From Raoultibacter timonensis (GTDB taxonomy: Bacteria; Actinomycetota; Coriobacteriia; Coriobacteriales; Eggerthellaceae), in contig NZ_LT964679.1 in NCBI RefSeq assembly GCF_900240215.1, positions 2,391,942 to 2,455,941 of the forward strand: DNA of 64,000 bases, in the 5' to 3' direction. Every line of letters starts with the position of its first letter. Positions within the stretch are counted from its first letter, which is position 1. A program made the translations under genes and the position numbers. Below, in pieces: positions 1 to 38,182 of this stretch. The notes under the pieces are model-generated. The model did no database searches and was not told the origin of the DNA. It saw only the letters and a program-made list of their open reading frames with translations.

Positions 1-2685
1 CCACCGCGGCCGCCGTGGCGTAGCGGTGGGGGCCGAAGAGGCGCGCGACCGAGAGGATGCTCTCCTGATCGACGACGGTAACCTCAATCGTCGTTTCCAC
101 GCCGCCCGGCGAAGCGAACGACAGATAGTAGATGCCCGCGGAAGCCGGTATGGCGGCGATGCCCGATGCGCTCGGCGTAGCTTCAAGCGCCGTGTTGTTG
201 CCATCGGTTGTCCACGCGACCGCCTGCGCCTCACGCGTGTAATCGTCGGCCGTAAACGCCCCCACATCGGCCGTCGATATGGTGATGTTGTTGGCAGCTA
301 CCGCCTCGCCTACGGTCAGATCGACCTCGAGCGCGTCGCGATCGTTGACGGTGAGCTTCGCCGTGGCCTCAAGCCCCTGGTTGGGCGTCGTGAACGCAAG
401 CCCGTAGGTGCCGATGCCGGCATAGGGGGTCGACAAGGCGAGCGATGCGAAATCGATCTCGGACGGATCCTCGATGTCTTTGTCTTTATGGTAGCCGTAC
501 TGCCAGTTGACCGCTCCGACCGCATCGGCGTACCCGCTTATATCACCCGATGCGCGAAGATCCTCGAAGCCCTGCGCCTCGGTCGGCGAAACGACAACGT
601 GCTCCTCGGCGACCTCGGGCGCCTCGTAGGCCCACACGCCGACGCCGATGGTGATTTCGGGATAGCTGGGCTGCGTGTAGTCGTAGGTCGTATAGGTTTC
701 GTAATAGGGGTACAACCCGTTGGGGTATGTGCCGTTCGGCAGCATCTTGAAGCACGCGATCTCGTCTTCGGTCACATCGCCGTAGCCCCATGTTTCGAGC
801 GTGTCCTTCTGCACGAATATCTTGCCGTGGATGCCGCCGGGCATCACCTGGTTGTTCGTCTGTATGTACTCATAGTAGATCGCGCCCGTCAACGGGTCGC
901 CCGCGCTGTTGATGTTCGTTACGGCGTCGCCAGCATGAACCGCAATGCCGCCGCCGAGATCAGGATCGCCTATTTCGACATTGCCCGAAACCCAGAAGTA
1001 GCCACCGTGCTTGAATATCTCGTTGCCGTAGAATCCGCAGGTAAAATCGTGGCTATCGGTCATGCCGAGGTCGGTGTGCGGCGAGGGCAGCGCACCCTCG
1101 GCAACGTTGCCCTTGATGGTGGCGTCTTCGAGGACAAACCAGCTGTAGGTCGAACCGTACACCCAGCTTCCGTCCTGGTTGAGCACGCCGCCGCCGTAGC
1201 CGTGCGCCGTGTTGCCGGTGATGGATGCGTTCTTGATCTCGAGATGGGTGATCTCGTTGAACACGCCGCCGCCGTGGTCGGCGGTGTTGTTCGCGATGGT
1301 GCCACCGAGCAGGTACATATGGTTGTAGCCCGAACTCGCCATGGGCTTGCCCGCTCCGCCACCGCTACCGAAGGCAGTCAGCGTGCCAATGCCGCCGCCG
1401 TACGCGGCGCTGTTGCCCGAGATTTCTCCCCCATAGGTGTACAGATGGCCGATATAGGGGCTGTCGGAATACACGCCTATCTCGACACGCGTCGAAACCG
1501 AGATACCGCCGCCGCGCCCCGACGCCTCGTTATCAACGATCTTGCCGCCGTTGATGGTCGCTGTTGCGGCGTTCACATGAACGCCCGCGCCGTCGCCGTC
1601 GACGATGTTGCCCGCAATCTCTCCGTCTTCCATGGTGAGCAGCCCGTTGGGGTACGTGCTCGAATAGAAGGTGTTACCGTAGAGTGCATAGCCGTTCACC
1701 ATTACGCCCTGTACGGTGTTGTCCCTTATCTCGCCGCCGTTCATGGTGAAGGGACCTTCGGTCACCACCGCCGCATGCGCCGCATTGAATTCGAAGTTCG
1801 ATGCGCGCTGCGTGTCGCCCGCCATGCCGGTGATCAGTGCTCCGTCGTTCATGACGAGCTCGCCGTCGGCGTAGGTCATATGGCCACCCTGCACGAACAC
1901 GCCCGAGCCCTTCTGGAGGCTCTTGTCGATGGTCTGGTCGGCTGCGCCCGTCACGTCGTTGTTCTGGAGCACGGCACCTGCACCCAGCGTGAGCTTGGCG
2001 CCGTTCCACATCACCTTGACGAGCGCGTTCTCAGCAGTGACAGCTCCCTTGTTGCCGTCGATCACGATATCTTCGAGCACGAGGCTCGCGTTCTCGTCAA
2101 CTACGAGCAGGTACCCGGCGTATCCAGGATCGCGCGTAAGCTGTTGCGTGCTACGGAGTTGCAATTCGCTATCCGACTGCGCTTTGAGCACCACATGGCC
2201 GACAATCCGAAGTTCTCCGGTTACGGCAATGGAGCCCGACACCTCGACGGCAACCGGGTTGTCCTCGCTGGCAAGTGCGTTGTCGGGATCTTCGAGAGCC
2301 GCTTTCAGCTCGTCGAAGCTCGATACCGCCACGGACTCGTCGCTGGGATCGCCGGGTTCGACCGGCAGCTCGCCACCCTCGCCCCAATCGGAGAGGGGCG
2401 ATGCTTCGTGCACCCCGGTATCAAGCGCAACAATACCATCGCCTTCGGATAAAAGCACGCTGGAATCGTTCGAACCTGTGTCGGCACCCTCCCATGCTCC
2501 ACCATCGGTCTCGATCGGTGCGTCGGTTGAAGCGCCGCCTGCATCATTGGCAAGCGCACCATGCCCTGCACCCCCCCCGCAGAGTCGGCGGCATCTTCGC
2601 TGGGCAGCGCAAAGGCGACGCCGGGGACCATCGAGGTCGAGAGCGTCAGCGCTAGCAGCACTGTCAGCAACCGTTTTGTATTCAT
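1..2685 (-). CDS. Beta-helix cell-wall-binding surface protein, frame broken at a G8 tract; 3' end outside window
   Basis: A secreted surface protein that runs off the window at position 1. It starts at 2685 (AAGGAG upstream) with a signal peptide, MNTKRLLTVLLALTLSTSMV, ending near AFA. Directly after it a run of eight G on the coding strand (plus-strand C at 2571-2578) shifts the frame. Downstream of the tract a single open frame continues to position 1, rich in short Gly/Asn repeats such as GGEISGNSAAYGGGIG and GGTIANNTADHGGGVFN, typical of right-handed parallel beta-helices. The last visible residues, RLFGPHRYATAAAV, match the start of a cell-wall-binding repeat 2 (PF04122). Nine or six G would restore the frame; with eight, a 126-residue product is predicted. 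Either this is an OFF phase of a switchable gene or a homopolymer sequencing error. The ligand is unknown. Confidence 0.8.
2571..2578. repeat. Poly-G(8) homopolymer tract in adhesin coding region
   Basis: Eight consecutive C on the plus strand (G8 in the coding direction), about 36 codons after the start of the beta-helix surface gene. Position and frame effect are as expected for a slipped-strand contingency tract, but the copy number could also be a sequencing artefact. Confidence 0.75.
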
Positions 2686-2737
2686 AGCCTTGCTCCTTTC
2701 GATTGTTGTCACATGGGACTCGGATTGAGGACAGTCG

Positions 2738-3178
2738 TTATCTGCTCGCAAAAGCAGCTGAAGCCCATCTCTCGAAAAACATCGAGGCGTTGGTGATGAG
2801 CGCATCGGGGTGCTCTTCGATTGCCATAGCATGTTCGCCTTTATCCTCCGTCGGACAGAGCTCGACAAGCCGCTCCCCCTCTTCGGTAAGCGCTATGTCG
2901 ATGCGTCGCTTGTCGCCATCCTTCGGCTCGAACACGATGAGGTACCCCTCGTCTTGCAGAACGTTCACGAACGCCCGTGCCGCCTGGGTGGAACACTGGT
3001 TCGCATGAGCAACTTCGGTCAGCGTTGCCGATCCTCCCCTTGATGCGACGACATCGAGCACCAGGAACTGCCGTCCCGTCAGATGCCCGTACTTTGTTCT
3101 CAGGATGGTGTCGATGCTCTTTTTGAACGCGAGCAACTCATACATTTTTTCTCGTTGGGGCGGGTTTCGGCCACCCAT
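2738..3178 (-). CDS. MarR-family transcriptional regulator
   Basis: A cytoplasmic winged-helix regulator of 146 residues at most. The DNA-binding part is recognisable from LTEVAHANQCSTQAARAFVN (helix-turn-helix) followed by the wing VFEPKDGDKRRIDIALTEEG, where the DxRR pattern is typical of MarR proteins. A second methionine 11 residues in (MYELLAFKK, 3145) could be the true start; neither has a strong ribosome binding site. It lies 52 bp upstream of the beta-helix surface gene on the same strand, so it may be cotranscribed with it and may control it. The effector ligand cannot be told. Confidence 0.82.
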   Translation of the reverse strand: MGGRNPPQREKMYELLAFKKSIDTILRTKYGHLTGRQFLVLDVVASRGGSATLTEVAHANQCSTQAARAFVNVLQDEGYLIVFEPKDGDKRRIDIALTEEGERLVELCPTEDKGEHAMAIEEHPDALITNASMFFERWASAAFASR

Positions 3179-3541: not shown

Positions 3542-3550
3542 CCCCCCCCC
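3542..3550. repeat. Poly-C(9) homopolymer tract, non-coding
   Basis: Nine consecutive C about 360 bp upstream of the MarR start. No supported gene crosses it. It is the second long G/C homopolymer within 1 kb. Confidence 0.8.
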
Positions 3551-3630
3551 GATATCTTCAGGGTTTCTTGCTGTTCGTCCCTGTATGGCGAAGCCGATTC
3601 TCAAGGCATTTTCCTTCGTAGATTACCAAT

Positions 3631-3658
3631 CTATTAATGCAATATATTACATTAATAG
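3631..3658. promoter_or_regulatory. 28-bp near-perfect palindrome, candidate operator
   Basis: Arms CTATTAATG (3631-3639) and CATTAATAG (3650-3658) are perfect inverted repeats; the ten bases between them contain the palindrome AATATATT, so only one base pair of 28 is unmatched. AT-rich palindromes of this kind are typical operators of MarR-type dimers, and a MarR gene lies downstream on the minus strand. The binding protein is an inference. Confidence 0.5.
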
Positions 3659-3798
3659 AAAAAATGAAAGAACTTTCTTAATTTGGCGCAGATGTGCGTC
3701 CTGTTCCACACAACTTCTTGCCGATCTGCCTTTTTTGTGCGGGCCAGGCACGCTTGCCCGCCCATCGGCATTCGTCGCATCCGCCAGATTCCATACGT

Positions 3799-3892: not shown

Positions 3893-6800
3893 CTACTGTG
3901 CGGCACGCTTTTTGCGACGCGACCGAACAACCAAGCTGACGATCGCGATTACCGCTGCGGCAATGCCTCCGACAACCGCCAAGGCGACGGCGATGAACGG
4001 TCCGTCTCCCGTTCTTACCAGATCGGAGAAGTAGCCGCCGAGCACCACAGAACCCGATTTTCCACTCGAGAACTCGAACGCCTCCCCGTCCTTCCAGTAA
4101 GAGAGCATGCCGACGTTGTTGAGCGTCTTCGAGGGCGGATTATCCCAGACCCTGAACTGCATGGTGATCTCGTTGCCCGTACCGAAACCCGCAGGCACGG
4201 TGCCGAAATCGACCACGAGACCGGTGATGTGCTCCCCTGCACTGAGCGAAGGGGCGTTGAAGCTGAACGGCTTGTTCGCATCGATGCCGGAATGAAGCAC
4301 CGTGCGTCCCTTGTGGTTGGTGTAATACACCACATCGTAGCTCACGTCGGCGGCGCCCGAGAAGGCAGGCAACGATGCCGATACGAAATCGAGTCCTTGA
4401 TCGGGCTTATCGGTTATGGCGTAACGGTCGAGCGAGGCGCCCCACTTGTTTTCGAAGCCCGTAAAGGTATAGGTGATCGTCTCGCCGGGCTTCACGCTCT
4501 TAACGTTGGGGGCCTTCACGAAGTTGTAGTTTTCCTCCTCGGGGCTTGGATCGGGTTTCGGACCCGGATCGGGATTCGATCCGCCGGACGCCTTGTAGAC
4601 CAACGTGATGGCATGAGGGCCCGTCACGTTCGGAATGCTCGGATTGCCCGACCCCTGATCGGCGCCATTGAGCGCCCAACCGCTGTAGGTGTAGCCGGTC
4701 ACCGCAGGCGGGGCGTACGAAAACGGATTGCGATGCGCAACCGTCGAGGTGGCTCCGCCCGGTATGGTCCTGCCCGCATCGTCGGCGTATGAGATCGTCA
4801 CGGTATGGTCCACCGGCTGCACCGTCGCAGTCGCAAGCGGGCTCGTCCGACCGAACGCATCAGTTTGCGTTGCCGAAACAGCATCGCCCCGCGTGAGTAT
4901 CACGCCAGCCGGCACATCGACTGACCAATAGCCGGTGGCAGCGAGAGGCGTCAAGGAGCTTGCCGATGAGGTTGCCGTCTGCCCGTTTGCGAACGTGACC
5001 GTAACCGAATTGCCCCGATCTGCCGACCCGGTGATCGTGAGCGCCGTCTCGAGCGGAGCCTCGATGCCCGGACCGTCGAGCGGAGCCGCGTATACGTAGG
5101 AGACAACACGGTCGCCGTTCGCAATGCTCGATTCGATGGCGGGGTCACCCGCATGGAGCGCATCTCCCGGCGCATCCTGGTCGGTCAGATAGCCTTGGTA
5201 TTCGTATCCAGCGAGGATCGCCGGCGCAGGCGCATCGTCGTGCCCGAGCTCGAACGAGGTCCCCACATTGAGGATTTGGACATCCCGGTCGGTCGAGGGC
5301 AGCGGGGCAAGCGCCCCATCAACGCCCCTTGTCACCCATTGCCGGGTAAACGAGAAGTCCTCGAACCCGTCGGGATCGACTCCTCCCCCGCCCGGACCCG
5401 GAGGCGTCGCGCCGCCGTTATCGGCTCCGTAGACGTACCACACCTCGGCATTCGATTCGACGCTCGCGATCTCAGGAGTCGCCCCGCCCTCAACCGTCGA
5501 ACGGTTCTCCTCCGAGGGGGTAGCGTAGTCGGCGCCGACGTACACCATACCGGTAAGGGTTTTGACGTTGGAGCCGTCATAGCGCTCGGCGTGCCCCAGC
5601 GTCTCGCTCGTATCCGCCGACACCATCTCGCCTGCACGGTCCACATGATGCTCGGTTACCGTATAGCTCGACTGCTCGTAGATGTAGTACACCTCGCGGT
5701 TGCCATCCGAAACCGATGCCGTAATGTCGGGCGCACCCGCATGGGGCGTGGTGCCCGCCGCATCCTGGTCGGTAAGATAGCCCGCATACGAGTACCCGGT
5801 CGGAATGCTCGGCACGGGGGCGTCGGTATCGGCGAGCGCGAAGGCGCTGCCTATGTTGACGATCTGGGTGTCGGACGACGTTGAAGGAAGCGCCGTGAAC
5901 GCACCGTCTTCAACGGTTCCCCAATGGCGCACGATATCGATGTCCTCGACGCCGTCGGGCTGCGTTCCGCCTCCCGAGGCGCCGGGGCTCTCGCCGCCGC
6001 CCGCATCGCGGCCGTAAATCAGGTACAGGTACGTATTGCCTTCAATCTCGTCGATATGGGGTTCGGCCTTGTCGGCGACCAGCGACGGGTTTCCCGACGT
6101 CGCCGACGCAAACTGGAAGCCCTGATAAACGTAGCCGGGAATGTCGGTCGGTTCGCCGTCATAGGAATCCCCGCCGTCGCCCCTGAACCACTCATCGCCG
6201 TATCCGGCGATCGGGGTGCCGTTGCGATCCTGGTGGACGTGGATGATGTTGTACTCGGTCGTGAACTCGAAGTGGATTTCGGTATCCTCGGTCAGCGCGG
6301 GAAGAATGTAGGTGGTCTCGTTTTCGATGGATAACGGCTCGACGACCTCGCCGTTGTAGGTTATCTCCTTCAGCTTGCTGTCGAAGTACGGAAACACGGT
6401 GAACCGCAGCTCCTTGCCCTCTTCGACGTAGCGCCAGCCGCTTGTGAGGTTGCCTTTGGCGATCTCGCGCTCGTTGATCCGATCGTTTACGAAAGGGTTG
6501 TAGACGTTGTACGTGTCCACCGTAGCCGCACCTTCACCGCTCGACGTTATCTTGGTTTCGAGGTAGTAGTTGATCGCCTGGTATTCGGCATTCTCAACCG
6601 ATGTGGGGGAGGTGGCCTCGGGGCCGCGTACGTAGAACTTGCTCGCCTTGGGCGTTGCGCTGAACGCTACCGAATCGATGGTCTCGGGCACGAACGCGGT
6701 ATCGCTTCCCAGCGAGTAATTGGGAAACGACATCCCGTCAGCACCCACGTACACGATCGCGTTAGAAGCACCGTTGAACTGCCAGCCACCGCTCGGGAAC

Positions 6801-8755
6801 GTCATGGGGGAGAGCTTCTCGAAATCGATGAATCCGCGTGAAGCCTGCGCGTTGAGGGCCGTGTCGCTCAAGGAGTGCATCGACAGGCAACCGGTGAACA
6901 CGTAGGGGGGAAGCACGGTGATATCGATCCCCAAAGCAACGGTTGTGATGTTCCAGCAATTGGCGAACTGCCAGCCGCTCTCGTCGAGAGATGCGACCGC
7001 CGTCTTTTCGAGATCGATCACGTTCGGATTGGCCGTCGCGTTGATGAGCGAGTCGCTGAGCGTCCGCAGAGCCTTGCAGCCGGCGAACACGTTGCCGGGC
7101 AGCTGCTTTATGTCCGGTCCGAGCGTGACGGTTGTGAAGGCTTCGTTGTTCGCGAACTGCCGACCAGCCGCGTCGAGCGTTGTGACGCCCGTTTTCTCGA
7201 GATCGATGACCTTCGAATTGGCAAGCGCATGCTCGGGCGTATCGCTCACCGAGGAGAGGGCTTTCGAGTCGGTGAAGAGGTTTCCGGGAAGCACCTCGAT
7301 GTTCTTGCCGAGCGCGACGGTCGTGATGGAGGAGCACTGGCTGAACGCGCTTTGTCCGAGCGCCGTCAGGTTGGTGCTCGAAAAATCGAGGACGCCCGGA
7401 TACGCCCGCACATCGGCTACCGAACCCCCGAACGTCGTGAGCGAGCTGCATGCGCCGAACACGTCGTAGTTGAGCGACGAAACATCCGGCCCTACGGTAA
7501 CCGCCGTGATGGAGGAGCACCCCCGAAACGACTGCATGCCCGAGAACTGCGTCACGCCTGTCGAGGCAAGATCGACGATGCCGGGATTCGCCGCCGCGTT
7601 GCCGAGCGTATCGCTCACTGTCGTAAGCGATGTGCAGCCCGCAAACGCCGACGCAGGAATTGCCGTGATGTTTGTGCCGAGGGCCACCGTCGTGATATTC
7701 TTCGCATTGGCAAGCGCGTACGCGTAGAACTCGCCGGTAAACGTCGACAGGTCGATCGTGGTGATGTTGAGGCTGTTGAGATAGGTCATCGAGGGAGTCG
7801 TCGACGAACCGCTTAATTGGAACCTGTTTTGGCCGCCGACTATCTTGAGCGTCGTTGCCGAGGCGATGTCCTCCTCGGAGAAGAGGCTCTTGAGCACGGT
7901 CTCGAGATTCGCCCAGTTGATCGGGTTATCCCCCATATCCACGATAAGCTCATCGAGCGCAAGCGGCCCAACAAGCGCTTCGTCCTCGACCGAACGCACG
8001 CCTGCGCCAAGCGCCGTGATGGCCGCGTCGGCCTCGACTTCGATCAGCTTGGTGTAGGCGATGGACTCTTCGTTTTCGGGATCGGCTTCGAACTTGTTGT
8101 CGCGCTCGGTATCGGCATCGGGAAGCGGCGGAAGGTATTCGGTTCCGTCGATCGTCTGCGCTTCGGCCTTCACGCGATAGGCGCCCGGCTCCACCTCGGA
8201 AAAGGAATAGGTTCCGTCCGACTCGGTGCGAGTCTCGGCAATAGGCTGCTCGCTATCGTCGCACAGGGTAACGGCGAACCCGGGAACAACCGCTTCATCG
8301 GCGGTGCGAACACCGTCCTCGTTTTCGTCGTGCCACACGAGTCCCGATATCGAAGCTGCGCCGTTCGCCTCCTCGCCTCCGCCGGCATCGGCTGGCGAAG
8401 GCGTATCCGTTTCAGGAGCAAGGTCGTCAGGGGCATCGCTGTCGGAAGCCGGCGCAGAGCCCCCGCCCGAAGGCGGCTGCGCACCGGAGCCAGGCGCCTG
8501 CTCGGAGGACAAATCGCCTGAGGCTCCATCCTGCTCCGCTCCCTCTTCGCCCTGCCCGGGATCCGAGGTTGCTTCCCCGGGTTCCTGCAGCGTCCCGTCG
8601 AGCATCGTCTCGGTGTACTCGAACGACTGGGCTGCCTCGGGCGACGGTCTCGCATTATTGTTATCGGCCGATGCCAGCGGGATCAGCGCCATGCTCGCCA
8701 CCAGAAGCGCCGCGAGCGCCGCGCCCACTACCTTGCGTTTTCTCGTCTTTAGCAT
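3893..8755 (-). CDS. Giant secreted surface protein: SdrD-like B domain, BspA-type leucine-rich repeats, MucBP-like repeats, C-terminal anchor
   Basis: About 1,620 residues. The start at 8755 has AGGAGGTG upstream and gives a clean signal peptide (MLKTRKRKVVGAALAALLVA). An upstream in-frame ATG at 8830 overlaps the stop of the sigma gene (ATGA), so a longer form is possible. Order of parts: acidic Ser/Gly/Pro-rich stretch; an SdrD B-like domain (SISGLVWHDENEDGVRTADE); BspA-type leucine-rich repeats of about 45 residues with patterns such as NITTVALGTNITAIPASAFA, roughly residues 270-660; several bacterial-repeat or MucBP-like units (HVHQDRNGTPIAGYG, TEHHVDRAGEMV, ISYADDAGRTIPGG); a conserved-looking C-terminal domain; then DLVRTGDGP, one membrane helix and RRKKRAAQ. 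The tail resembles a sortase signal with V in place of the LPxTG proline. Likely an adhesin; the ligand is unknown. Confidence 0.85.
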   Translation of the reverse strand: MLKTRKRKVVGAALAALLVASMALIPLASADNNNARPSPEAAQSFEYTETMLDGTLQEPGEATSDPGQGEEGAEQDGASGDLSSEQAPGSGAQPPSGGGSAPASDSDAPDDLAPETDTPSPADAGGGEEANGAASISGLVWHDENEDGVRTADEAVVPGFAVTLCDDSEQPIAETRTESDGTYSFSEVEPGAYRVKAEAQTIDGTEYLPPLPDADTERDNKFEADPENEESIAYTKLIEVEADAAITALGAGVRSVEDEALVGPLALDELIVDMGDNPINWANLETVLKSLFSEEDIASATTLKIVGGQNRFQLSGSSTTPSMTYLNSLNITTIDLSTFTGEFYAYALANAKNITTVALGTNITAIPASAFAGCTSLTTVSDTLGNAAANPGIVDLASTGVTQFSGMQSFRGCSSITAVTVGPDVSSLNYDVFGACSSLTTFGGSVADVRAYPGVLDFSSTNLTALGQSAFSQCSSITTVALGKNIEVLPGNLFTDSKALSSVSDTPEHALANSKVIDLEKTGVTTLDAAGRQFANNEAFTTVTLGPDIKQLPGNVFAGCKALRTLSDSLINATANPNVIDLEKTAVASLDESGWQFANCWNITTVALGIDITVLPPYVFTGCLSMHSLSDTALNAQASRGFIDFEKLSPMTFPSGGWQFNGASNAIVYVGADGMSFPNYSLGSDTAFVPETIDSVAFSATPKASKFYVRGPEATSPTSVENAEYQAINYYLETKITSSGEGAATVDTYNVYNPFVNDRINEREIAKGNLTSGWRYVEEGKELRFTVFPYFDSKLKEITYNGEVVEPLSIENETTYILPALTEDTEIHFEFTTEYNIIHVHQDRNGTPIAGYGDEWFRGDGGDSYDGEPTDIPGYVYQGFQFASATSGNPSLVADKAEPHIDEIEGNTYLYLIYGRDAGGGESPGASGGGTQPDGVEDIDIVRHWGTVEDGAFTALPSTSSDTQIVNIGSAFALADTDAPVPSIPTGYSYAGYLTDQDAAGTTPHAGAPDITASVSDGNREVYYIYEQSSYTVTEHHVDRAGEMVSADTSETLGHAERYDGSNVKTLTGMVYVGADYATPSEENRSTVEGGATPEIASVESNAEVWYVYGADNGGATPPGPGGGGVDPDGFEDFSFTRQWVTRGVDGALAPLPSTDRDVQILNVGTSFELGHDDAPAPAILAGYEYQGYLTDQDAPGDALHAGDPAIESSIANGDRVVSYVYAAPLDGPGIEAPLETALTITGSADRGNSVTVTFANGQTATSSASSLTPLAATGYWSVDVPAGVILTRGDAVSATQTDAFGRTSPLATATVQPVDHTVTISYADDAGRTIPGGATSTVAHRNPFSYAPPAVTGYTYSGWALNGADQGSGNPSIPNVTGPHAITLVYKASGGSNPDPGPKPDPSPEEENYNFVKAPNVKSVKPGETITYTFTGFENKWGASLDRYAITDKPDQGLDFVSASLPAFSGAADVSYDVVYYTNHKGRTVLHSGIDANKPFSFNAPSLSAGEHITGLVVDFGTVPAGFGTGNEITMQFRVWDNPPSKTLNNVGMLSYWKDGEAFEFSSGKSGSVVLGGYFSDLVRTGDGPFIAVALAVVGGIAAAVIAIVSLVVRSRRKKRAAQ

Positions 8756-8826
8756 CGTTTCACCTCCTGCTTCGGATTGGTCTTCATGTAAAAGGTCGTT
8801 ACTCTTCGGCTTTCCCATAGCGAACC

Positions 8827-10098
8827 TCATCTATCGAACATCGAGACGAACTCGAACATGTCGGGTACGGGACCTGTGCCCCCGAAGCGATACGCCACTT
8901 CGACGGCCTCGGTTCCCGGAATCGCCTTAACGATCACGAACAACTGCTTGTCCTGCTTGATGAGCTCGTAGACCGCAAACAGCGACCCTTCGAGCGTTTC
9001 GGCGTATCCTTGCTGCGCCGCGCCGAGCGATTCAACGAACGAGGCGACGTCCGGACCGCTGCCTCCCTGACTCGCCAAGGCGAGCAGCCGCTCTTCCCCG
9101 TCGCTCCCGATCATGTCGGCCAGCGTTGCGATAGGCGCTTCAGCGGGAGGCTCGTCGACGACGGGCTCGGGTTCTCGTTCGGGAGGCTCGGTCGGCTCTT
9201 CAACCGGTTGGACGAGCGCAGGCGTATCGGCCACCGACTCCGCGGGCTCGCCGGATACGACGACGCCCGTCGCAATACCGGCGACGAGCAAGACCGACGC
9301 TCCACCGATGGCAAGCTTTGCCGCGACCCCCTGGCCTGCGGCAGCAGCGGCGCCGACGCCGGCTACCGAAGTAACGGCGCATACGGAACCCGCATACTCC
9401 ATAAGCCGCCGCTCCATATCAACCGTTACCAGGTGCGAGCAATCGAGTTCGTAGATGCGCGCGAGCGTCGGCATGGCCCCCGTCGGAAGCATGGCCGACG
9501 CCAGGACGGCACCGCCGTTGGCCTCCTCGATCTTCTTCCTGAGAGCCTGACGCGCTCGCTTGAGATCGTTCGTCACCTTGTTGGCGTTGACGCCGAGCGT
9601 AGCGGCGATCTCCTTGTAGGAGAACCCCTCGAAATAGAACAAGAGCAGCGCTTCTTGGTAGTTCTCGTTGAGCTCTTTGATGCGCTCGAGAACGAACGAC
9701 CGCTTTTCCGCATCTTCGGCATATTCGGCAGGCAAGAACTCCGTACGCGCTTCTTCGATCGACATGATCGCATCGTTTGCCCCGGGATCGCCGCCGATCA
9801 GTATCGTATCTCGCTCCATCGCGCCGTTTCTCCGATAGCACGTGTACTTGACGATGCTGTGGAGCCACGAATCGAACGCATCGAGATCCTTGAGCTTCCC
9901 GATCCCCCGATACGCCTTGAGCACGGCTTCCTGTGCGCAATCCTCCGCATCGTCGGCATTTCCGGCATAGTGCAGCGCCAGATACAGTATCTTGGAGCGG
10001 CACGAGCCGATGAGCGCTTCAAAGGCTTCGCTATCGCCTCGCCGCGCTCTGTCAACCAGCTTTCGCACGTCTGAACGACGTGCCTTCTTCTCACCCAT
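8827..10098 (-). CDS. ECF sigma factor with membrane-anchored extracytoplasmic C-terminal extension
   Basis: The first 195 residues (of 423) form an ECF-type RNA polymerase sigma factor. Region 2 contains NADDAEDCAQEAVLKAYRGI, and region 4 contains EGFSYKEIAATLGVNANKVT. A Gly/Ala-rich hydrophobic helix (about residues 255-280, GGASVLLVAGIATGVVVSG) follows, then a Pro/Glu-rich linker and a C-terminal domain of about 90 residues that would lie outside the membrane. I do not recognise that last domain. ECF factors are usually near 190 residues, so this one is probably tethered and may be released or gated by an envelope signal. The start at 10098 has AGGG seven bases upstream. Its stop overlaps an ATG of the giant surface gene (ATGA), suggesting that gene is its partner or target. 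Confidence 0.85.
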   Translation of the reverse strand: MGEKKARRSDVRKLVDRARRGDSEAFEALIGSCRSKILYLALHYAGNADDAEDCAQEAVLKAYRGIGKLKDLDAFDSWLHSIVKYTCYRRNGAMERDTILIGGDPGANDAIMSIEEARTEFLPAEYAEDAEKRSFVLERIKELNENYQEALLLFYFEGFSYKEIAATLGVNANKVTNDLKRARQALRKKIEEANGGAVLASAMLPTGAMPTLARIYELDCSHLVTVDMERRLMEYAGSVCAVTSVAGVGAAAAAGQGVAAKLAIGGASVLLVAGIATGVVVSGEPAESVADTPALVQPVEEPTEPPEREPEPVVDEPPAEAPIATLADMIGSDGEERLLALASQGGSGPDVASFVESLGAAQQGYAETLEGSLFAVYELIKQDKQLFVIVKAIPGTEAVEVAYRFGGTGPVPDMFEFVSMFDR

Positions 10099-36901: not shown

Positions 36902-38182
36902 TTACCGCTGTGCCGCCTCCGGGCTTGTTGCCTTAATGGCTCCCGCCTCGATAAACGCGCGGTACAGCTCGAGCTGGTCTTCGATAACGGCGGCAAGGCG
37001 GCGAATCGCCTCGTCGAGGTTTTCGGGACTCTCGAAGCAGAATGCGAGCCGCATGCAGTTCTGCCCAGCCGATGCATTCGGGAAGAAACCGTCTCCGGGC
37101 GTATACGTCACGCCCTTGTCGAGCGCCACCGACAGCATCGAGCCGGTATCCACATAATCGGGCAGCGTCACCCACACGAAGAAGCCCCCTTCGGGATGGG
37201 TCCACGTCGCCTCGGGCGGGAAGTATTTTTCAAGCGCTGCGAGCATGGCATCGCGACGGGTCTTGTAGGTATCGACGAACTTTTGCAGCGTCTTCTGCCA
37301 CGGCGTGTCGGTGAAGTAGTGCTGCACCACAACCTGGTTGAACGCGCTGCCGCACAGATCGGTGCCCTGCTTGACCAAGTTGAGCTTGGCCAAGAAGCTC
37401 TTCGGCGCGACAACCCAGCCGGTGCGCAGCCCCGGCGCGAACACCTTCGACACCGTACCGAGGTAGACGACCTGATCGTTCAAGGCGCGCAGCGGCTTCA
37501 CATGTCCGCCATCGTAGCGAAGGCGCCCGTACGGATCGTCTTCGACCACGAAGAAATCGTATGCTTCGGCAAGTTCGAGCAGCCGCTTGCGACGGGCGGG
37601 CGACATGGTCACGCCACCCGGATTCTGGAAGTTCGGAATCGTGTAGAGGAACTTCGCCTTGCCCTTGCCGATCTTCTCAAGCTCGGCTTCGAGCAGATCC
37701 ATCCTCATACCCTCGTGATCGAAGGGAATGCAGCGCACATCGGGCTCGTACGCAGAAAACGCCTGCAGCGCACCCAGGTACGTGGGGCCTTCGGCCAAGA
37801 TGATATCGCCGGGATCGATGAACGCCTTCGCGATAAGATCGAGCGCTTCCTGCGCACCGCTCGTAATCATGACTTCGGCGGGCTTACAGCGCACCCCGAT
37901 ATCGCGCATGAGATCGCAGAACACCTGCTTCGTCTCCACGCGGCCATCGGTCGAACCGTACTGAAGGGCAACGGCGCGATCGTCTTCGGCTGCCGCCCTC
38001 ATGGCCTTCTTGATGGCGCTCGGTGGAAGCAGCGACACATCGGGCATGCCGCCTGAGAGCGAGATGATATCGGAACGGGAGGCCGCCGCGAACAGATCGC
38101 GCACGGCCGAAGTCCGCATCTTGATGACGCGGTGAGCGACTTTGTCGCCCGTTTTGTCGAATATGATGTGTGCGGATGACAT
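36902..38182 (-). CDS. PLP-dependent aminotransferase (class I/II, 2-aminoadipate-type)
   Basis: 426 residues, fold type I. Markers: DIISLSGGMPDVSLLPPSAI at the N-terminus, SGAQEALDLIAKAF, YTIPNFQNPGGVTMS, VVEDDPYGRLRYDG, and the cofactor lysine in VYLGTVSKVFAPGLRTGW. The pattern fits the LysN/aromatic aminotransferase group related to MocR C-terminal domains; the amino donor cannot be fixed from sequence. No helix-turn-helix is present. It begins four bases after the stop of the upstream gene with no good ribosome binding site, so it is probably translated by coupling. Confidence 0.9.
   Translation of the reverse strand: MSSAHIIFDKTGDKVAHRVIKMRTSAVRDLFAAASRSDIISLSGGMPDVSLLPPSAIKKAMRAAAEDDRAVALQYGSTDGRVETKQVFCDLMRDIGVRCKPAEVMITSGAQEALDLIAKAFIDPGDIILAEGPTYLGALQAFSAYEPDVRCIPFDHEGMRMDLLEAELEKIGKGKAKFLYTIPNFQNPGGVTMSPARRKRLLELAEAYDFFVVEDDPYGRLRYDGGHVKPLRALNDQVVYLGTVSKVFAPGLRTGWVVAPKSFLAKLNLVKQGTDLCGSAFNQVVVQHYFTDTPWQKTLQKFVDTYKTRRDAMLAALEKYFPPEATWTHPEGGFFVWVTLPDYVDTGSMLSVALDKGVTYTPGDGFFPNASAGQNCMRLAFCFESPENLDEAIRRLAAVIEDQLELYRAFIEAGAIKATSPEAAQR

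Follow-up and report, generated by a model that had tools for sequence, protein, structure and literature searches.

We assign a probability of roughly 0.7 to the reading that the run of eight G at positions 2571-2578 of the window, as we call the whole stretch of 64,000 nucleotides analysed here, is a phase-variation (contingency) locus that works by replication slippage and was sequenced in its OFF phase. According to this reading, replication slippage would add or remove G residues just behind a signal peptide. Tract lengths that bring the frames into register would lead to a secreted surface protein that is probably CWB2-anchored and beta-helical, and lengths out of register would end translation after 126 amino acids. 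The tract would belong to a genus-wide phasome of roughly 25 poly-G tracts, distributed over surface-protein genes, leaders and promoter spacers. We infer that the tract slips in living cells and that the ON phase yields the protein. The proposed switch site comprises the following features:

Positions 1 to 2578, minus strand: open second frame, encoding the body of a surface protein with parallel beta-helix-like repeats followed by a further region; CWB2-like sequence occurs near the left end and continues to the left of the window (translation, codon usage, repeats, alignment).
Positions 2571 to 2578, minus strand: G8 homopolymer (C8 on the plus strand), the proposed slippage switch, OFF as sequenced (sequence read).
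Positions 2608 to 2685, minus strand: part coding for the signal peptide, ATG at 2685, MNTKRLLTVLLALTLSTSMVPGVAFA (translation and hydropathy; cleavage point set by eye).
Positions 2692 to 2698, minus strand: Shine-Dalgarno sequence AAGGAGC, with a spacing of 6 to the ATG at 2685 (sequence read).
Positions 2305 to 2685, minus strand: OFF product of 126 amino acids in the frame as sequenced (translation).

The signal peptide runs into the G8 tract as the original prediction had stated. It is encoded on the minus strand and starts from the ATG at 2685 behind a strong ribosome-binding site, and the whole-genome copy of 2571-2578 is identical to the window (C8 on the plus strand). Translation as sequenced likewise yields the predicted 126-residue OFF product. 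The claim that 850 or more codons are open only in the next frame was also borne out: from 2578 the +1 frame of the minus strand stays open over no fewer than 856 codons and beyond the left edge of the window, and its codon-usage score over 2.57 kb is the best of all six frames (270 as compared to 133 for the next one), a rank that it keeps in each third of the region. Between the upstream stop at 2740 and the tract, the +1 frame has no ATG, GTG or TTG and only one CTG, so that the signal peptide can join this frame only if the sequence changes at or close to the tract. An alternative start in the open frame was considered and rejected, the single CTG being the sole candidate before the tract. 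A change in tract length would move the frame here, as it would alter promoter spacing at other loci. Strong start, signal peptide, tract and long open second frame match intragenic slippage switches, which supports the predicted anatomy of a phase-variable surface protein. For a gene of about 1,000 codons plus a 292-base N gap, the predicted 'giant' is generous.

The intact second frame bears on the possibility that the frameshift is fixed and the gene a pseudogene that no longer reverts. A long-dead gene would lose both its reading frame and its codon usage, whereas more than 850 codons are intact here and native codon usage prevails in all thirds. In favour of a pseudogene, there is no close relative of the gene that could show purifying selection, and a surface-protein gene at another locus (L041) carries several frame changes at G6/G7 runs. 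On balance, we consider a fixed frameshift distinctly unlikely.

What kind of protein the switch would control can be read in part from its repeats. GxI..NxA repeats occur in the protein body at a frequency matched by none of 5000 shuffles, and the body aligns with beta-helix-type wall proteins of two relatives at 32-34% identity over trimmed regions. One member of the alignment has a weak Chlam_PMP match (E 0.019). Structure models were poor, with a pLDDT of 38 from the single sequence and of 49 from a three-sequence alignment. Foldseek placed mostly right-handed beta-helix enzymes, tailspikes and pertactin on top for the latter model, none of them significant (best E 0.025). No significant match was returned by a Pfam and NCBIfam scan of the protein body and no match by a PDB sequence search with a profile of the protein. 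The predicted beta-helix is therefore likely as far as the repeat motifs go, and did not receive a confident model; that the protein is an adhesin is a guess. To the left of the window, the +1 frame continues with RLFGPHRYATAAAV, followed by the 292-base N gap and a piece matching CWB2 (PF04122). This match, situated beyond the gap, covers one partial repeat (E 1.4e-4; 22.8 bits as compared to a cut-off of 24.9), and the window protein is probably anchored through CWB2. No full-length homologue of the gene was found among 60 relatives or in the genome contigs, and its own tract therefore has no comparison.

The two long tracts of the window do not exceed chance when taken alone: as many G8 matches in 64 kb are reached by 27 of 100 dinucleotide shuffles. 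An argument from these two tracts was therefore rejected, and the case rests on the genome, where length distribution, strand polarity and frame-breaking go beyond chance. Exact runs of seven, eight, nine and ten G number 29, 12, 26 and 5 in this genome and 25, 5, 24 and 0 in the one congener genome. Whereas a steady fall with length is expected for such runs, both genomes display a second peak at nine G, and similar peaks were seen in several other genera of the same family. The excess of G9 over the extrapolation from shorter runs is significant in this genome (P about 3e-11) and in the congener (P 6e-25), and with a generous fixed ratio still amounts to P values of 6e-8 and 5e-8, respectively. 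Long G tracts are over-represented genome-wide in both species, as slipped-strand switching calls for; eight G, the length found at the proposed window switch, is not among the enriched lengths here. The sequence around a tract of contig 1, CCAAGAACCGACATGCCCCCCCCCGAAAG, recurs on the small contig C2 of 5,826 bases (loci L033, on C2, and L027), and the assembly may thus hold a redundant or duplicated piece.

Inspection of the surroundings of tracts of eight or more G in both genomes of the genus revealed many that lie within or close to the 5' ends of surface-protein genes, with several at signal peptides (from a gene list). The tract is in frame in L044, where a signal peptide is followed by SGGG in a protein of 1229 amino acids, and at the signal peptides of the giant DUF11 proteins L032 and L063, which are orthologues. 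The CWB2 protein L047 and its congener orthologue L056 carry the tract at the signal peptide as well, in frame in L047 and out of frame in L056, and a further signal-peptide tract (L073) is out of frame. C-runs within or adjoining the signal peptide are all in frame (L041, L022, L071). In five congener loci (L059, L060 (5742), L061, L070 and L064), coding sequence lies on both sides of a G9 in different frames, followed by BspA-type LRR repeats in L059, L061 and L070 and by RCC1/Cna_B domains in L064 (Pfam); the assignment of L060 (5742) as LRR-related depends solely on the reading frame and on the in-frame neighbour, L060 (11566), which is an LRR protein. Tracts are also found in genes for proteins other than surface proteins, namely a regulator of the PucR type, GGDEF proteins, a sigma-54 activator and a Cache-domain mechanosensitive channel. 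Several tract sites are common to both species. Both phases are present among the loci, in different genes or species rather than in one gene of two cells.

Strict frame breaks were found at 5 of 16 scorable tracts of at least eight G as compared to 5 of 79 G6/G7 control runs, and three of the five frame-breaking controls reside in one damaged surface gene of L041. A second surface-protein gene, at 11173-11940 of L041, changes frame several times at G7 and C6 runs; it may be a contingency gene that has decayed or been shortened, or may reflect an assembly error. An apparent 'break' was also noted at a T7 run at window position 38182.

The in-frame and out-of-frame tracts also speak to the possibility of a sequencing or assembly error at 2571-2578, in which case the true tract would be in frame and the gene always on. 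The assembly, a draft, contains many single Ns as well as a Nextera-like sequence next to a gap, and the 292-base N gap interrupts the gene itself. However, no N occurs near the tract within the window, and other tracts of this assembly with eight or nine G keep the frame (L044, L047), which argues against a systematic undercall. Moreover, the congener, assembled in two contigs, also has several out-of-frame G9 tracts. We therefore regard such an error as unlikely, and return to a switch caught in its OFF phase.

A second tract in the window lies further upstream of the same gene, within a recurring cassette:

Positions 2738 to 3178, minus strand: MarR-type regulator, 52 bases before the start of the putative adhesin (MarR_2, E 7.7e-6, marginally below the cut-off).
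Positions 3542 to 3550, minus strand: second window tract, G9, upstream of the MarR gene (sequence read).
Positions 3630 to 3659, no strand assigned: near-perfect palindrome with 15-base arms, TCTATTAATGCAATA/TATTACATTAATAGA, lying some 80 bases further upstream than the G9 tract (sequence read).

A MarR gene followed by a gene for a large secreted, often CWB2-containing protein recurs in L039, L053, L047 and L056, with the G-tract either upstream of the MarR gene or inside a preceding CWB2 gene; in L039 and L053, both MarR-CWB2 loci, its placement is similar to that of the window G9. The palindrome may serve as operator of the operon formed by the MarR and adhesin genes. Upstream of the MarR gene, the window also encodes an intact BspA-type LRR/SdrD_B surface protein of 1645 amino acids (3893-8830). 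No sigma-70-like promoter was found around the window G9 tract. At other loci, three intergenic G9 tracts (two in L030, one in L066) are located between TTGACA and a -10-like box, with 10-11 of 12 matches, a score of 10/12 being reached by 0.1% of random sites. Furthermore, an intergenic tract (L045/L065) is conserved between the two species, flanks included, and is nine G long in both. Tracts situated in leaders and in the spacers of promoters, at which a frameshift would be meaningless, argue against transcriptional slippage or programmed frameshifting through the tract, by which some full-length protein would always be made. Long G runs can make polymerase slip, which counts for this mechanism; all the same, we deem it very improbable, and slippage during replication the preferred explanation.

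The G9 tracts are also polar with respect to the DNA strand. All 24 congener G9 tracts fit two arcs of 1.98 and 1.88 Mb on opposite strands, provided that the assumed contig order holds, a replichore-like arrangement in that it corresponds to the pattern expected for two replichores. By the local measure, the G-rich strand of the locus carries 23 of 25 G9 tracts in this genome and 17 of 24 in the congener. The class of G8 runs, in contrast, shows no strand polarity (4 of 11 in this genome). Replichore polarity of G9/G10 tracts in two other genomes of the family (G004, G006) is weak or suggestive (P 0.02-0.10). In genes whose coding strand has the C-run (L016, L022, L041, L046, L057, L071, L072), the tracts appear to follow the strand rather than the direction of the gene.

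Polarity this strict, 24 of 24 in two nearly equal arcs of the congener and 23 of 25 here, would also suit a replication-polar chromosome motif, such as a guide for a DNA translocase, that hits genes by accident. Such a motif would be present at only about 25 sites per 3.9 Mb, and many of the tracts sit near the 5' parts of surface genes and break frames. The polarity is also compatible with strand-biased slippage, and we judge a chromosome motif to be extremely improbable. The polarity would instead reflect strand-biased slippage or survival of tracts. No match to MutS (PF00488) turned up in any of 41 genomes from the order, whereas the search was positive in 11 of 14 controls, and NucS (PF01939) had no match in this genus. 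Matches to NucS in seven other genomes were partial, spanning about 40 residues, and were not counted as NucS. Without mismatch repair, small slippage loops would stay uncorrected. Unequal slippage on the two strands has been raised as a possibility in Bifidobacterium (PMC9187656).

A broader proposal, made tentatively and at somewhat less than even odds, is that in these gut-type actinobacteria a genus-wide, perhaps family-wide, phasome of leading-strand-polar G9 tracts is kept in place by strand-biased slippage in the absence of MutS and NucS and switches dozens of large surface proteins as well as MarR-linked operons. If true, a little-studied bacterial group would diversify its surface from cell to cell by slippage, a mechanism for which Campylobacter, Helicobacter and Neisseria are the best-known examples. 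Annotations of single genomes would then overlook many such surface proteins because these were OFF at the time of sequencing. Strand polarity together with the lack of MutS and NucS matches offers a testable link between the direction of replication and the sites where contingency loci persist.

Our literature search, which was light on subscription papers, returned no report of homopolymer switching in Eggerthella or the Eggerthellaceae. The Pmp proteins of Chlamydia are beta-helix-type surface proteins with short glycine/asparagine repeats and are linked to poly-G variation. The protein described here may resemble them in its likely fold type and short repeats; the likeness was probed through the weak Chlam_PMP match mentioned above. 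Unlike it, they are Gram-negative autotransporters, and there is no sign of common descent. The poly-G loci of Campylobacter jejuni are mostly surface-modification genes. The phasome of C. jejuni NCTC11168 comprises 29 poly-G loci, with measured switching of 0.004 for G8 and 0.02 for G11 (PMC4965091). It is similar in having about 25-30 tracts, intragenic as well as intergenic and many at surface functions, and differs in that switching was measured; here, large wall proteins are prominent. Phase variation of the Eggerthella lenta capsule also concerns a gut actinobacterium, one that may be related, but it proceeds by large inversions, slipped-strand mispairing being brought up in the discussion only (PMC13174815). 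In the sortase-dependent pilus of Bifidobacterium breve, a G-tract switch (Penno et al. 2022, PMC9187656) operates in a gut actinobacterium as well, and an intragenic tract similarly separates a short ORF with a Sec signal from the main surface-protein ORF, which has no start signals of its own. In that case, length classes were determined by maximum-depth sequencing and pili were assayed (PMC9187656), whereas our evidence is confined to genome sequences; moreover, the B. breve switch controls pilins, while mostly CWB2, LRR and other wall proteins at many more loci are concerned here. The proposed window switch would belong to a known class, slipped-strand poly-G phase variation, and the G-tract switch of the Bifidobacterium pilus is its closest relative.
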